Source of the DNA: Elusimicrobiota bacterium
Lineage (GTDB): Bacteria; Elusimicrobiota; Elusimicrobia; UBA1565; UBA9628
Assembly: GCA_016218575.1 (NCBI GenBank)
Contig: JACRDN010000017.1
Span: 62,001-126,000 of the forward strand
Length of the DNA stretch: 64,000 bases
Direction: 5' to 3'
The notes beneath the pieces were generated by a model. It saw only the letters and a program-made list of their open reading frames with translations, had not been told where the DNA came from and ran no database searches. The translations under genes were made by a program, and so were the position numbers. This document shows positions 41,054 through 45,506 of the stretch, one piece after another. How positions within the stretch are numbered: position 1 is the stretch's first letter; every line of letters begins with the position of its first letter.

Positions 41054-41127
41054 GCGGGCGTGGTTCAATGGTAGAACGGGTCCTTGCCAAGGATCAGACG
41101 AGGGTTCGATTCCCTTCGCCCGCTCCA
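41054..41127 (+). tRNA. tRNA-Gly (anticodon GCC)
   Basis: A complete cloverleaf can be drawn. The acceptor GCGGGCG pairs with CGCCCGC. The D-arm contains GGTTCAATGGTAGAAC, the anticodon loop TTGCCAA carries GCC, and the T-loop is GGTTCGATTCC. The 3' CCA is encoded (TCCA at 41124-41127). The last part of this gene is repeated at 45492-45506, suggesting use as an integration site. Confidence 0.95.
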
Positions 41128-41130
41128 GTT
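41116..41130 (+). repeat. 15-bp direct repeat, left copy (tRNA-Gly 3' end; candidate att site)
   Basis: TCGCCCGCTCCAGTT spans the tRNA 3' acceptor, CCA and 3 bp beyond. The identical 15-mer occurs at 45492-45506. The 4.36 kb between them carries a complete ECF sigma regulon but no recognisable integrase. Confidence 0.55.
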
Positions 41131-41150
41131 TCCCGCGTATTGGGCATGGC

Positions 41151-41552
41151 ATGAGATTTCCGCGAGCCCGATTCCAAAGTCTGGCAGAGAAGGCCCTTGG
41201 CGAGCTTCCCAGGCGTCTGCGCGCGCTCTTGTACAACGTCGGCATCGACATCAAGGAGAAGCCCGGGGCCGAGGCCGGGAAATGGAAGGGTTCTAGCACT
41301 TTGCTCGGCCTCTACTCGGGCCTTAAGCGCAGCGAGATGGCCAGCCCCGTTTCCGGGACCTATCTGCCCGCGCGCATCGTCCTCTACAAGAAGAACATCG
41401 AGGACCGTTGCGCCAGCGAAAAAGAGCTGGCGCGCATGATCCGCCACACCCTCTTTCATGAGATCGGCCACCACCTAGGCTTTGGCGAGGATGAGATACG
41501 CAAGAAGTGGCCCGATCAGTCGAACCGGCAGTCGAGCCCGGCCGATGCGTAG
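41151..41552 (+). CDS. zincin-like metallopeptidase family protein
   Basis: This is a 133-residue protein of the minimal zincin family (PF06262-type). The motif FHEIGHHLGF has zinc ligands His103 and His107 with catalytic Glu104 and an extra His108. A preceding beta-strand (ARIVLYKKNIEDRC) is typical. It has no signal peptide, so it acts in the cytoplasm; a substrate is not known for the family. It begins 24 nt after the tRNA-Gly gene. Its 3' end overlaps the convergent beta-barrel gene by 37 nt, so its tail (SNRQSSPADA) may be variable. Confidence 0.85.
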   Translation: MRFPRARFQSLAEKALGELPRRLRALLYNVGIDIKEKPGAEAGKWKGSSTLLGLYSGLKRSEMASPVSGTYLPARIVLYKKNIEDRCASEKELARMIRHTLFHEIGHHLGFGEDEIRKKWPDQSNRQSSPADA

Positions 41553-42283
41553 ACAGCCGCGCGCGCGCCCTGCTCCCAGGAAAAAGCGAAGCGTGCCGCC
41601 AGAGGCCCGTTGAGGGGGACGGTCCAACTGACCGTTTCGCTGACGATAGCCGCGGCATACGACGCAAGCCCCACTGTCGCCCGCAGGCCCACCGTCGTAG
41701 CCCCGGCCGGCAGGCGCGCGTAGCCCGAGAATTCATTATAAGTAAAGCGGTCTGAAGTCGCGGCGATTCCGGACTGGACCTTGCCGCGGATGCGGCCGCG
41801 CACGATCTTCTGGTCGCCGCGGATCACGGTCGAACCCCCGATCGAGCCCGTGGTGTAGCGATATTCGGTTCCGAGCGTGGGCCAGTTGAAGTCGCGCTCG
41901 ACTCCCGTCTCAAGCGTGATCGAGCTTGAGCTGTCATCGGAATCCCGGAAGCTCCCGACGGAGAAACCCAAGCCGCCTTTGACGCGCAGATCTTCGCGCA
42001 AGTCTTTCCAGGCCCCGCCGCCCAGGGAAAAACGTCGCGAGTCGATGTCGGCGCCGTATTCGCTCCAGAGGTACGGGGAAAGCTTCGGGCCACGCCACAG
42101 CGCGTCGCCGTAGACGCCGAAGCGGCGGTAGCCTCCGGAACCGGCCGACAGCACGGCTCCGCCCCCGCCCATCGCCCCGGGTTTTTTCGGCGCACGCTGC
42201 GACTCGGGCAGGACCTCGGCCATGGCCGCCGGCGCGGCCAAACTTAGGCCCAATACGGCCGCTATGATCCATTGCTTGTCCAT
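41516..42283 (-). CDS. outer membrane beta-barrel protein of the ECF operon
   Basis: This is a 255-residue exported protein with signal peptide (QWIIAAVLGLSLAAPAAMA). A Gly-rich linker is followed by ten or so amphipathic strands (FGVYGDALWRG, LGFSVGSF, TEYRYTTGSIGG, YASAGLDCRF) near the C-terminus, a small outer-membrane barrel. The family is not recognised. The ATG is preceded by GGGGAG. It is the fourth gene of the leftward operon that begins with the ECF sigma factor, 14 nt after the DUF3106-like gene, so it should be induced with them. Confidence 0.78.
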   Translation of the reverse strand: MDKQWIIAAVLGLSLAAPAAMAEVLPESQRAPKKPGAMGGGGAVLSAGSGGYRRFGVYGDALWRGPKLSPYLWSEYGADIDSRRFSLGGGAWKDLREDLRVKGGLGFSVGSFRDSDDSSSSITLETGVERDFNWPTLGTEYRYTTGSIGGSTVIRGDQKIVRGRIRGKVQSGIAATSDRFTYNEFSGYARLPAGATTVGLRATVGLASYAAAIVSETVSWTVPLNGPLAARFAFSWEQGARAAVYASAGLDCRFD

Positions 42284-42297
42284 ATATCTCCCCTACG

Positions 42298-42681
42298 CTA
42301 ACGGCGGGGACCGTGATCGTGGCGCGGACGGTCTTCTCGCGTGGAGCGCGGACTGCGGTCAAGCCGCTGGCCTGTCTCGCGTCGCCGTTGGCTGATATCG
42401 CGCGCGTTCCGGTGCTCCGGCCGGGCCGGGCGAGGCAGGCGCGCGTTTGGCGCGCGTTTCAGGAGCTCGGCGCGGCGGGATTGCGGCAGACTCCGGTAAA
42501 GGACGAAGCGCTCGCGCAGCAGCCGGCGCTTCTCCGGGGTCATGGTCTGGTAGCGCTCGTAGTTCCTAAGAATCTTCTCACGGCGCGCCTGAGGCAGGGC
42601 CTGCCAGCGGGACTCCGGGGAATCGGCGGCTTGGACCGATCCGAGCAAGGCGAAGAAGAGCAACGCTGCGCGCAGGGTCAT
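42298..42681 (-). CDS. DUF3106-like exported protein
   Basis: This is a 127-residue protein with a signal peptide (LRAALLFFALLGSVQA). A short repeat-like region is WQALPQARREKILRNYERYQ then MTPEKRRLLRERFVLYRSLP, matching DUF3106 (Trp/Pro/Arg spaced helices). The C-terminal third is very rich in Arg, His and Pro. DUF3106 genes commonly lie beside ECF sigma/anti-sigma pairs, and the protein is thought to act in the periplasm, possibly as a sensor like CpxP or RsrA partners (inference). The start overlaps the anti-sigma stop by 4 nt. Confidence 0.8.
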   Translation of the reverse strand: MTLRAALLFFALLGSVQAADSPESRWQALPQARREKILRNYERYQTMTPEKRRLLRERFVLYRSLPQSRRAELLKRAPNARLPRPARPEHRNARDISQRRRETGQRLDRSPRSTREDRPRHDHGPRR

Positions 42682-43088
42682 GGCTTGGGCGCCTCCCAGT
42701 TCTCCAGCACATCCAGGCACTCGAAAAACTCGGGGTTCTCCAGTACCTCTGCGGGCGGCAGGTTGGCGCGGGTCTTGACCGAGGAAAGGCTCCAGAAGAA
42801 GAAAGCAGCGGCGGCCAGGGCCAAAGCGGGGGCCCAGCGCGGGGCCTTCGCCCGCCCTCCTCTTGCGGCGGCCCGCGTCCTGGCGGCCAGACGGGCGAAA
42901 CGGTTCTCGGGCAGCAGGCCGTCAAGGCTGGGCGCGCCGGCGGCGCAAAAGGCCTTGAATTTATCGAGCTCGCCGCGGCAGGAAGGGCAGGCCTGCGCAT
43001 GCCTCAAGAAAGATTCGGCGACGGCCCCGGCTTGCGGCCAGCAGGACCAGAGGTCCTCGCGCCATGCCCTGCAGTCTCGGGCGTTCAT
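42678..43088 (-). CDS. membrane-bound anti-sigma factor with zinc-finger motif
   Basis: This is a 136-residue protein. Residues His30, Cys34 and Cys37 (HAQACPSC) form the Hx3CxxC zinc-binding motif of ZAS anti-sigma factors. One membrane helix follows at about 84-103 (WAPALALAAAAFFFWS), with a short periplasmic tail (about 104-136). It should hold the ECF sigma factor at the membrane until an envelope signal releases it. It overlaps the sigma gene by 4 nt and the DUF3106-like gene by 4 nt. Confidence 0.9.
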   Translation of the reverse strand: MNARDCRAWREDLWSCWPQAGAVAESFLRHAQACPSCRGELDKFKAFCAAGAPSLDGLLPENRFARLAARTRAAARGGRAKAPRWAPALALAAAAFFFWSLSSVKTRANLPPAEVLENPEFFECLDVLENWEAPKP

Positions 43089-43630
43089 GAGAGCTTCTCC
43101 TTCATTTTATGGACGGCTGTAAACAAAGTGGACTTGATCGTCCCCTCGCTGACGCCCAAAACGGCTCCGATCTCGCCGAGGGCGTAGCCCTCGAGCCGCA
43201 AAGCGGCGATCTCGCGTTCGCGCGGGGAAAGGTCGGACATGGCGCGCTCCAACTCCAAGCGGCGCTCGACATGCTCTCTCTCGACCTCGCCATCGCCCAG
43301 GCAGTGGGTCCAGCTTTCCCCGTGATCCCCGCGCGCGGCGTCGAGAGGCAGCCATTTCCTGAAGCTCATCCAGCGCTGCCGGGAGCGGGCGTCGTTGATG
43401 GCGATGCGGGACACCCAGGTGCGGAAGCTGGAACGGCCCTGGAACGACTCGATGCTTTGAAACGCTTTCACGAAGGCCTCCTGCGCGGCCTCCTCGGCCA
43501 GATCGAGGTTGCCCAATAAGCTGAGTAAAAATCCCGCCACCGGCTTTTGATGCCGATCGACCAGCGTCCCGAAGGCCTCGGCGTCGCCGGCGCGGGCCTT
43601 GAAGACGAGTTGCTCGTCCGTCTCTTCCAC
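43085..43630 (-). CDS. ECF-family RNA polymerase sigma factor
   Basis: This is a 181-residue sigma-70-type factor. Region 2 (DAEAFGTLVDRHQKPV through DLAEEAAQEAFVKAF and FRTWVSRIAINDARSRQR) and region 4 (LSPREREIAALRLEGYALGE, VSEGTIKSTLFTAVHKMKE) are complete. I chose the GTG at 43630 because AGGAG lies 8 nt upstream and the sequence then begins EETDEQLVFKA, as in other ECF factors. An ATG at 43711 is possible but would absorb the promoter-like site. It heads an operon with its anti-sigma factor, a DUF3106-like protein and a barrel. Confidence 0.94.
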   Translation of the reverse strand: MEETDEQLVFKARAGDAEAFGTLVDRHQKPVAGFLLSLLGNLDLAEEAAQEAFVKAFQSIESFQGRSSFRTWVSRIAINDARSRQRWMSFRKWLPLDAARGDHGESWTHCLGDGEVEREHVERRLELERAMSDLSPREREIAALRLEGYALGEIGAVLGVSEGTIKSTLFTAVHKMKEKLS

Positions 43631-43633
43631 TTT

Positions 43634-43664
43634 ATAGACTCCTGAAACGACCAAAAAGTTGGGG
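43634..43664 (-). promoter_or_regulatory. ECF-type promoter of the sigma-factor operon
   Basis: Read leftward, CCCCAAC (43658-43664) is followed after 18 bp by GTCTATA. The CAAC -35 and GTC-type -10 are usual for ECF factors. The -10 ends only a few bases before the GTG, so the transcript from it would have almost no leader and would lack the AGGAG; a promoter further upstream may also exist. The same motif faces right at 43716-43746. Confidence 0.55.
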
Positions 43665-43715
43665 CATGGGAGTTCAATTCTACCCAATTCTTGCCTAAAT
43701 TTGAGCGTCATGCGG

Positions 43716-43746
43716 CCCCAACCTTTCTCCCGGTCGTGGCGTCTAA
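43716..43746 (+). promoter_or_regulatory. ECF-type promoter of the divergent envelope operon
   Basis: CCCCAAC (43716-43722), 18 bp, then GTCTAAA (43741-43747) repeats the motif found in front of the sigma operon. It lies 33 nt before the ATG at 43780, leaving room for the GGGAGG ribosome-binding site. It is the strongest evidence that the divergent operon is a target of this sigma factor. Confidence 0.65.
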
Positions 43747-43779
43747 ATCCCAAGAGTGGATTCCAACTGGGAGGTGCCT

Positions 43780-44274
43780 ATGAACAGGAAATGGATTATG
43801 GCGGCCATGTTGAGTCTGGGATTGACCGCGCCGGCCGGCGCCGAGGAGGCGGCCAAGACCGAGCCGCCCAAGGACGAGGCGGTCAAAACAGTGGAGCCCA
43901 AGGAGGACGCGGACCGCAAGGCCGGCGAGCTGGCCGCTCGCTACAATGTCTCCAAGGAGGACGTCAAACAGCTCCGCGACAAGGGGTTGGGTTGGGGGGA
44001 GATCAGGCACGCGCTGGGCATAGCGCAGGAAGCCGGCGTGCCGCTGGCCGACGTCATGAAGCTGCGCGACTCCGGCATGGGCTGGGGCAAGATCGCGCAG
44101 AACTACGGCTTCAAGCTCGGCGAGATTACCGGCAGAAATCCGGAGATGGGGGCTCGTGAGATCAGGGAGGAGGGGCGCCAACAGAGGCGCGAGCTGCGCG
44201 AGCAAATGCGCCAGCGGCGCCATGAAGGCGGCGGCCCCAATGGCCCCCGCGGCCGCGGCGGAGCGAAGGGCTAA
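43780..44274 (+). CDS. hypothetical exported protein with LRDxGxGWGxI repeats
   Basis: This is a 164-residue protein with a signal peptide (KWIMAAMLSLGLTAPAGA) and a Lys/Glu/Pro-rich linker. Two tandem helix-turn units follow: VKQLRDKGLGWGEIRHALG and VMKLRDSGMGWGKIAQNYG, then a Gln/Arg/Glu helix and a Gly/Arg/Pro tail. I do not recognise the family. The repeats may bind a peptide or wall component (inference). GGGAGG precedes the ATG; a further in-frame ATG at 43756 is not used. It is the first gene of the rightward ECF-target operon. Confidence 0.72.
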   Translation: MNRKWIMAAMLSLGLTAPAGAEEAAKTEPPKDEAVKTVEPKEDADRKAGELAARYNVSKEDVKQLRDKGLGWGEIRHALGIAQEAGVPLADVMKLRDSGMGWGKIAQNYGFKLGEITGRNPEMGAREIREEGRQQRRELREQMRQRRHEGGGPNGPRGRGGAKG

Positions 44275-44283
44275 GGAGGGATT

Positions 44284-44748
44284 ATGAAACTGATGAGGCC
44301 GGTCGTGACGGCGGTCTTGGCGTTGGCGCTGACGGGCCCGGCTTGCGCCCAGCACCATGGGAGCTTCGGGGCCGGCGTCATCCTAGGCGACCCCACGGGT
44401 CTGACGCTCAAGACCTGGGTTGATGATAGGCAGGCCTTCGACGTCGGGGTGGGCTTCAGCGGAGATGCGGCCTTTTACGCCGACTATCTGCTGCACGCCT
44501 GGGACGTATTGCCTCAACCGAGCCAGGGGCGGCTGGGCGCCTATTTGGGCCTGGGTCCCCGCGTCGAGACGCAGCGCGACGCGACGTTCGGCATCCGCAC
44601 GCTGGGCGGCGTGGACTATTGGATCGCCAACCGTCCCATCGAGCTGTTTCTTGAGGCCGGGCCTGTCTTTCGCCTGGCTCCGGAGCGGCAGGTCGACGTC
44701 GATGCCGGTTTGGGCGTGAGGCTATACTTCGGTGGCTCTAAATCATAG
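44284..44748 (+). CDS. small outer membrane beta-barrel protein
   Basis: This is a 154-residue protein with signal peptide (RPVVTAVLALALTGPACA). It continues FGAGVILGDPTGLTLKTWVDD and AFDVGVGFSGDAAFYADYLLH, and ends with VDVDAGLGVRLYFGG. The alternating strands and GEPTG-like start resemble eight-stranded small outer-membrane barrels of the BAPKO_0422/OmpX-like kind. The stop is followed by GGAGG for the next gene. It lies 9 nt after the repeat-protein gene and is presumably co-induced by the ECF factor. Confidence 0.78.
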   Translation: MKLMRPVVTAVLALALTGPACAQHHGSFGAGVILGDPTGLTLKTWVDDRQAFDVGVGFSGDAAFYADYLLHAWDVLPQPSQGRLGAYLGLGPRVETQRDATFGIRTLGGVDYWIANRPIELFLEAGPVFRLAPERQVDVDAGLGVRLYFGGSKS

Positions 44749-44763
44749 AGCCAGGAGGAACGC

Positions 44764-45348
44764 ATGCGCAAGCACGTGGGGAAGTATCCAGTAAACAGCT
44801 GGCTGAAAGACAGGTTGATCGCCGCCGTCCAGGGCGCTGGAGGTGTGGCCGAGGCCTGCGTGTCGGCCGTCGCGGAAGTGATGTCCTCTGCCGTGAAGGG
44901 TTCTGGCAAGGTAGGGGCTTCGCTGATGGGTGCCGTCTACGAGATCGCCCATACCGCGGTCTTCGGGGCCGGCGAGATCGGCTGCGAGCTAGGGCTCATG
45001 GCTAAGGCCTTCGTGCTCGGCGTGCTGCGCGGCAGCCGCCAAACGGGCGACGAGGCTCTGGCGACGATCGGCCACGCGGCGGAGTCCTTCCTCAGGCACG
45101 CTTCCGACGCCGGAGGAAACCTGGGAACGGCGGCGCTGGGGCTTGTCGAGGGGGCGATCCAGGCGGCCGGCGAACTGGGGGTTGATGTGAGTAGGGCGGG
45201 CTCGGCCGCGGCGCAGGGCGCGTTGGAAGCCGCCTACGACATCAGCGCCTCTGCCGGGGAGAAGGTCCGCAAGGCCTTGAGCGGGACGATCACTGGAGTC
45301 AAGATCGTGCTCAAGGAGCCGTTCAAAACGCATCCCGTAAAAAGATAG
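44764..45348 (+). CDS. Ala/Gly-rich repeat protein of the ECF operon
   Basis: This is a 194-residue protein with no signal peptide and no recognised domain. It is made of amphipathic Ala/Gly/Val/Glu-rich segments of roughly 30-33 residues, each with small residues at regular steps (VAEACVSAVAEVMSSAV, GAGEIGCELGLMAKAFVLG, AALGLVEGAIQAAGELG, AALEAAYDIS-like). It ends in a basic tail. It could form a membrane-surface amphipathic helix array, like stress proteins of the LEA or apolipoprotein kind (inference). The ATG follows AGGAGG by a few bases. It closes the rightward ECF-target operon. Confidence 0.65.
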   Translation: MRKHVGKYPVNSWLKDRLIAAVQGAGGVAEACVSAVAEVMSSAVKGSGKVGASLMGAVYEIAHTAVFGAGEIGCELGLMAKAFVLGVLRGSRQTGDEALATIGHAAESFLRHASDAGGNLGTAALGLVEGAIQAAGELGVDVSRAGSAAAQGALEAAYDISASAGEKVRKALSGTITGVKIVLKEPFKTHPVKR

Positions 45349-45364
45349 AAGCGGACTGGAGCAC

Positions 45365-45400
45365 CCTCCGCCCCCGCCCTTCCGTGGACGGGGGCGGAGG
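45365..45400. terminator. GC-rich hairpin at end of ECF-target operon
   Basis: CCTCCGCCCCCG and CGGGGGCGGAGG form a perfect 12-bp stem with a 12-nt loop, starting 17 nt after the operon stop codon. No T-tract follows, so it may act as a weak terminator or RNA stabiliser. Confidence 0.55.
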
Positions 45401-45491
45401 TCATGCCGGAGACGGGGTTTGGCGCGGACGGTTCTGTTGAGCGACCGATGTGTTATAATCTCTAACAGATCAGGCGAGAATGTGATTTCGA

Positions 45492-45506
45492 TCGCCCGCT
45501 CCAGTT
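45492..45506 (+). repeat. 15-bp direct repeat, right copy (candidate att site)
   Basis: TCGCCCGCTCCAGTT is identical to the tRNA-Gly 3' end at 41116-41130. The sequence just upstream (TTTCGAT) also resembles the tRNA T-arm with a 6-bp gap, but the rest of the tRNA is absent. This is what the distal end of an element integrated into tRNA-Gly would look like. Confidence 0.5.

Follow-up and report, generated by a model that had tools for sequence, protein, structure and literature searches.

Organization of the locus

The window is a stretch of 64,000 nt from the genome of an uncultured Elusimicrobiota bacterium (G000, assembly GCA_016218575.1, contig JACRDN010000017.1), a 2.82-Mb assembly that is 97% complete. 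Between positions 41054 and 45506 it harbors two divergent operons that are flanked by a tRNA-Gly gene and a partial copy of it. The leftward operon encodes an extracytoplasmic function (ECF) sigma factor, an anti-sigma factor, a DUF3106 protein, and an outer-membrane barrel termed barL. The rightward operon encodes a GWG-repeat protein, a second barrel termed barR, and an Ala/Gly-rich repeat protein. The seven genes, both copies of a promoter-like motif, the tRNA-Gly, and its remnant had all been listed in a preliminary description and were found in the sequence at their positions; the seven are real genes, because all of them have homologs in relatives. The list had overlooked a gene for a zincin-like metallopeptidase (41151..41552, plus strand; PF06262, Pfam E 6e-21), which starts 23 nt behind the tRNA-Gly inside the insert and is convergent with the leftward operon. 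The comparison set consisted of Elusimicrobiota metagenome-assembled genomes, with per-gene counts taken over 56-57 genomes and the widest sigma factor search covering 341 genomes.

The tRNA-Gly insertion site

The intact tRNA-Gly (GCC anticodon; 41054..41127, plus strand; ARAGORN and Rfam) is the insertion target and forms the upstream end of the island. The downstream end is a former tRNA-Gly 3′ half (45468..45506, plus strand) with 31/39 nt identity, which extends from the anticodon arm through the 3′ terminus and constitutes the best non-self match in the window (score 23 versus 15.5). The copy had been noticed before, at less than its length of 39 nt. Its CCA lies 16 nt before the ATG of an SRPBCC gene, matching the position of the tRNA end in empty sites. 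Relatives of the same family carry an HD-GAF gene, the tRNA-Gly, and the SRPBCC gene in this order. In seven of them (G011, G032, G014, G028, G030, G033, and G010) the SRPBCC gene starts approximately 10-20 nt behind the tRNA CCA, and the site is therefore empty in these genomes; in the window, 4.4 kb separates the tRNA-Gly from the SRPBCC gene. The target duplication and the empty sites in relatives together bear out the proposed insertion at the tRNA-Gly.

Other genomes carry different material at the same tRNA-Gly. G007 (L182:3885-6886) has an unrelated 2.9-kb insert with an ATPase-like gene and a well-preserved copy of the tRNA 3′ half, and 7.6 kb of other genes occupy the site in G006. 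In G002 (L179:4137-4195), the tRNA-Gly and a short copy of its 3′ end are separated by a 48-bp insert that contains a short hairpin and is possibly an excision scar. These differing inserts mark the tRNA-Gly, judged by sequence comparison, as a hotspot for insertions and identify the downstream copy as the end of the original tRNA. The arrangement resembles tRNA-targeted integrative elements in having an insert between a tRNA and a 3′-half copy and in the empty sites of relatives. It differs from them in its size of only about 4.4 kb and in that domain searches found no integrase among the open reading frames of the insert.

The sigma factor operon

The ECF sigma factor (43085..43630, minus strand; PF04542 and PF04545 in Pfam/NCBIfam searches) contains Sigma70_r2 at residues 64-125 and r4 at residues 171-219 of the open reading frame and no other domains. 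The linker of approximately 45 residues between both regions is within the ECF criterion (<50). The protein probably starts with the GTG at 43630, directly behind the −10 element, and the start position is equal in homologs. In the sigma factors of G000, G027, G055, and the f14 genomes, the start codon follows the GTC of the motif by 6-9 nt, so that their mRNAs would have little or no leader. Among the 341 genomes of the phylum, a close ortholog of the sigma factor was found in G027 alone (62% identity).

The stop codon of the sigma factor gene at 43085 overlaps the start of the anti-sigma factor gene at 43088, and the same gene order is found in G027, G055, and G178. The anti-sigma factor (42678..43088, minus strand) is of the class I type and appears membrane-anchored. 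It harbors the Hx3Cx2C motif, which it shares with the anti-sigma factor of G027 and which here reads HAQACPSC, and a hydrophobic stretch (WAPALALAAAAFFFWSL) that is predicted to form a transmembrane helix. The protein matches NCBIfam NF052375 weakly (19.6 bits, cut-off 100) and none of the Pfam anti-sigma zinc-finger models. The Hx3Cx2C motif is typical of class I anti-sigma factors (PMC7406223). A paralog of the pair lies beside a tRNA-Leu in the same genome (C13, L079:6091-7062); its single 323-aa open reading frame combines an ECF sigma factor, an Hx3Cx2C anti-sigma factor, and a hydrophobic segment, and may be a natural sigma/anti-sigma fusion.

The third gene encodes a helical, charged, and predicted exported protein (42298..42681, minus strand) that matches DUF3106 (PF11304) with 32.3 bits, over the gathering cut-off of 24.3. 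DUF3106 matches occur in 7 of 77 genomes, in six of which they lie beside a sigma factor of this clade. Among the named control genomes, E. coli alone gave a match, which was below the threshold. An operon of an ECF sigma factor, DUF3619, and DUF3106 exists in Betaproteobacteria; a literature search gave no paper on DUF3106.

The promoter motif and the sigma clade

Two copies of the motif lie between the sigma factor and repeat-protein genes and face apart. The predicted autoregulatory promoter of the sigma factor reads CCCCAAC-N18-GTCTATA (43633..43664, minus strand), and the predicted second promoter, ahead of the rightward operon, reads CCCCAAC-N18-GTCTAAA (43716..43747, plus strand). The −10 element of the former is AGTC and that of the latter CGTC, which is also found in most sigma promoters of relatives. 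With up to one mismatch, CCCAAC-N18-GTCTAA has four matches in the 2.82-Mb genome, two of which are these copies. A wider regulon was sought in the same genome with relaxed patterns, and these were no richer than a reversed-pattern control, which leaves the two local sites as the only conspicuous ones.

In a tree of 39 ECF proteins of the phylum, the sigma factor falls into a clade of 18 members with a support of 97/89. Of these 18, 16 carry the motif, generalized to CTAAACC or CCCAAC-N16-18-GTC, at the start of the sigma factor gene. The strict pattern (CTAAACC or CCCAAC, 16-18 nt, GTC, located at the sigma start) accounts for 15, and the sixteenth, G055, fits a looser pattern with CTAATC. 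The two members without a copy at their start are G041 and the fusion paralog. The strict motif is absent from the starts of all 21 other ECF sigma factors of the phylum. Given 16/18 against 0/21, the motif is very probably the promoter of the sigma factor's own gene.

Twelve clade members carry a second copy. Second copies are divergent in G000, G030, G228, G232, G178, G183, and G032 and lie just 3′ of the DUF3106 gene in G027, G055, and the five f14 genomes. No second copy was found close to the sigma factor in G009, G016, G034, and G024. The second copies mostly precede a gene for a predicted exported protein with charged repeats, such as QDKLQTQDQ in f14, RGERxER in G228, and RAERMKERAE in G032. 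In G055 the second copy is followed by genes for a coiled charged protein and an outer-membrane barrel, and in G000 and G027 by those for the GWG-repeat protein and barR. The divergent gene in G178 and G183 encodes a response regulator and no exported protein. At L285:6003 and L281:7325 in family f14, exported QDKLQTQDQ-repeat proteins are also encoded behind a further motif copy.

That the motif should be conserved in position had been proposed beforehand and holds in G027, where it precedes both the sigma factor and the repeat-protein gene. The proposal of shared control likewise gains from the comparison, as the motif cosegregates with the sigma clade and second copies, be they divergent or downstream, recur across it. 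The predicted co-regulation of both operons by the sigma factor is thus well supported by genome comparison. The two-promoter design appears to be a trait of the sigma clade, and the attached envelope genes appear interchangeable.

Repeat protein, barrels, and Ala/Gly protein

The GWG-repeat protein (43780..44274, plus strand) is predicted to be exported and comprises two LRDxGxGWGxI units and a charged basic tail. Homologs occur in 19 of the 57 genomes of the set at about 29 loci, and the G000 copy matches no Pfam model. In a single-sequence structure model (pLDDT 73), the GWG units coincide with short helices, and the C terminus forms a long, charged helix. Designed alpha/alpha toroids were considered as relatives and rejected, with best fold matches at E 0.08 and Z ~7 only, and the PDB yielded no credible match to the sequences of the repeat family. 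GWG units are also present in proteins of Hydrogenophaga, Leeia, Pseudodesulfovibrio, Peptococcaceae, and Chloroflexi. In Leeia oryzae, two exported proteins with GWG units are encoded side by side (L253:5722-6835). Several Hydrogenophaga species carry a single GWG-unit gene, and the copy at L244 adjoins repeated "FSVDGIPVDA" proteins.

BarL (41516..42283, minus strand) is a predicted exported protein of 255 aa without a Pfam match and is encoded by the last gene of the sigma operon in G000. The preliminary description had called it a small barrel; it is indeed a predicted barrel, of 12 strands in the AlphaFold model (pLDDT 75, pTM 0.71). The nearest solved fold is KdgM, with Z 23.4 and 1.3 Å over 168 residues. 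The barL model shares the fold of the KdgM/NanC 12-stranded acidic-oligosaccharide porins, but the sequence identity is only 10%. BarR (44284..44748, plus strand) is a predicted small outer-membrane barrel of 154 aa, recognized by homologs and adjacency. Its homologs occur in 35 of 57 genomes, and it is a recurrent partner of the repeat protein. The Ala/Gly-rich repeat protein (44764..45348, plus strand) has no signal peptide and has homologs in just 2 of 56 relatives. Its gene adjoins barR in G011 as well, a genome without the sigma factor, and no motif was found ahead of the AlaG-barR operon there.

Gene partnerships across genomes

A same-strand barrel gene neighbors the repeat-protein gene at 13 of the 29 loci, with three kinds of barrel represented. 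These are barL (G005, G055, G043, and G001), barR (G000, G027, G042, G043, G037, and G001), and a PF13557-type barrel (G010, G033, G039, and G041). The pairing with a PF13557-type barrel is also found in the gammaproteobacterium Thiohalophilus. The PF13557/COG4313-type outer-membrane channels are thus neighbors of the repeat gene elsewhere, and neither barrel of the window belongs to them. A control of 337 genes, taken from loci that had been selected on other grounds than the repeat gene, contained no barrel homologs except the two of the window.

The seven genes had been read as one module, a view that was to fall if the rightward genes occurred in relatives without the sigma factor. Such occurrences were found: in most relatives, the repeat protein, the two barrels, and the Ala/Gly protein are encoded without this sigma factor, so that a fixed seven-gene module is not supported. 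The durable units appear to be the sigma factor, anti-sigma factor, and DUF3106 protein on the one hand and the repeat protein and barrel on the other. Both units are joined in 2 of the 341 genomes searched; in G027, the genes for the sigma factor, anti-sigma factor, and DUF3106 protein, the motif, the GWG-repeat protein gene, and barR follow one another on one strand. The preferred reading of the seven genes is that two older units, now located on a tRNA island, were joined in a lineage-specific manner.

Proposed mechanism and alternatives

The locus likely represents an autoregulated ECF sigma/anti-sigma pair with a DUF3106 partner that fires two like promoters and whose output genes are exchangeable, carried on a tRNA island; we hold this with good, though not full, confidence. 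Without a signal, the sigma factor would be kept at the membrane by the anti-sigma factor. It would be released by an envelope signal, for which the periplasmic DUF3106 protein is perhaps the sensor, and would then fire its own promoter and the second promoter of the same type. The second promoter would serve the production of a charged repeat protein for export; in G000 this would be the GWG-repeat protein, together with its outer-membrane barrel and the Ala/Gly protein. The output genes would be exchangeable cargo, and the two-promoter design would belong to the sigma clade. In G000, the whole set resides in a tRNA-Gly insertion that lost, or never had, an integrase. The predicted export and the barrels point to a role of the outputs at the envelope, possibly in its remodeling.

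ECF sigma factors are known for AAC/CGT promoter boxes, a co-transcribed anti-sigma factor, and autoregulation (PMC8103513). With the RpoE-RseA/SigW-RsiW type, the present system shares the restriction to sigma2 and sigma4, the AAC and CGT boxes, the adjacent anti-sigma factor, and the motif at its own gene. It differs from that type in the DUF3106 partner, the nearly leaderless sigma start, and the second promoter of the same type ahead of an exported repeat-protein gene.

The sigma factor might instead control its own operon only, with the rightward genes using an unrelated promoter and being divergent by chance of insertion. The sigma-free occurrence of repeat and barrel genes in most relatives would fit this explanation, but the full motif precedes the repeat gene in two different arrangements, divergent here and downstream in G027, and second copies recur across the clade, which makes it improbable. 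Still less credence is due to the interval as a mobile satellite that serves its own spread or defence and in which the sigma module is incidental. Such a satellite would fit the use of the hotspot by unlike inserts (G006 and G007) and the 48-bp insert in G002; against it, no integrase or replication gene was found in the insert, no relatives of the repeat protein were found in viral contigs or plasmids, and the 17 kb examined for the G027 copy contained no tRNA.

Another explanation takes the repeat protein and DUF3106 as parts of the sensing loop, that is, as feedback regulators of the anti-sigma factor rather than envelope effectors. It agrees with general ECF logic, with the location of the DUF3106 gene within the anti-sigma operon, and with the fact that the gene behind the second promoter usually encodes a charged repeat protein that is exported and has no enzyme domain. 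We nevertheless consider it rather unlikely, at roughly one chance in four, as pairs of a repeat protein and a barrel also occur far away from all sigma factors of this clade. These distant pairs suggest that the repeat protein acts jointly with the barrel.

A broader reading is put forward tentatively, at somewhat less than even chances. The sigma factor may represent an undescribed ECF lineage of Elusimicrobiota whose defining output, via a duplicated promoter of the lineage's own type, is an exported charged repeat protein. In addition, the exported GWG-repeat proteins may form a cross-phylum, two-gene envelope module with barrels, acting as periplasmic partners of several unrelated barrels, and this module would have been captured as the output of the sigma factor.

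Genetics is nearly absent in this phylum, for which the locus provides a defined pair of sigma factor and promoter and a regulon that can be tested. It also draws attention to an uncharacterized family of exported GWG-repeat proteins that pairs with three kinds of barrel from Elusimicrobiota to Thiohalophilus, and the recurrence of this pairing makes a partnership between periplasm and barrel directly testable.
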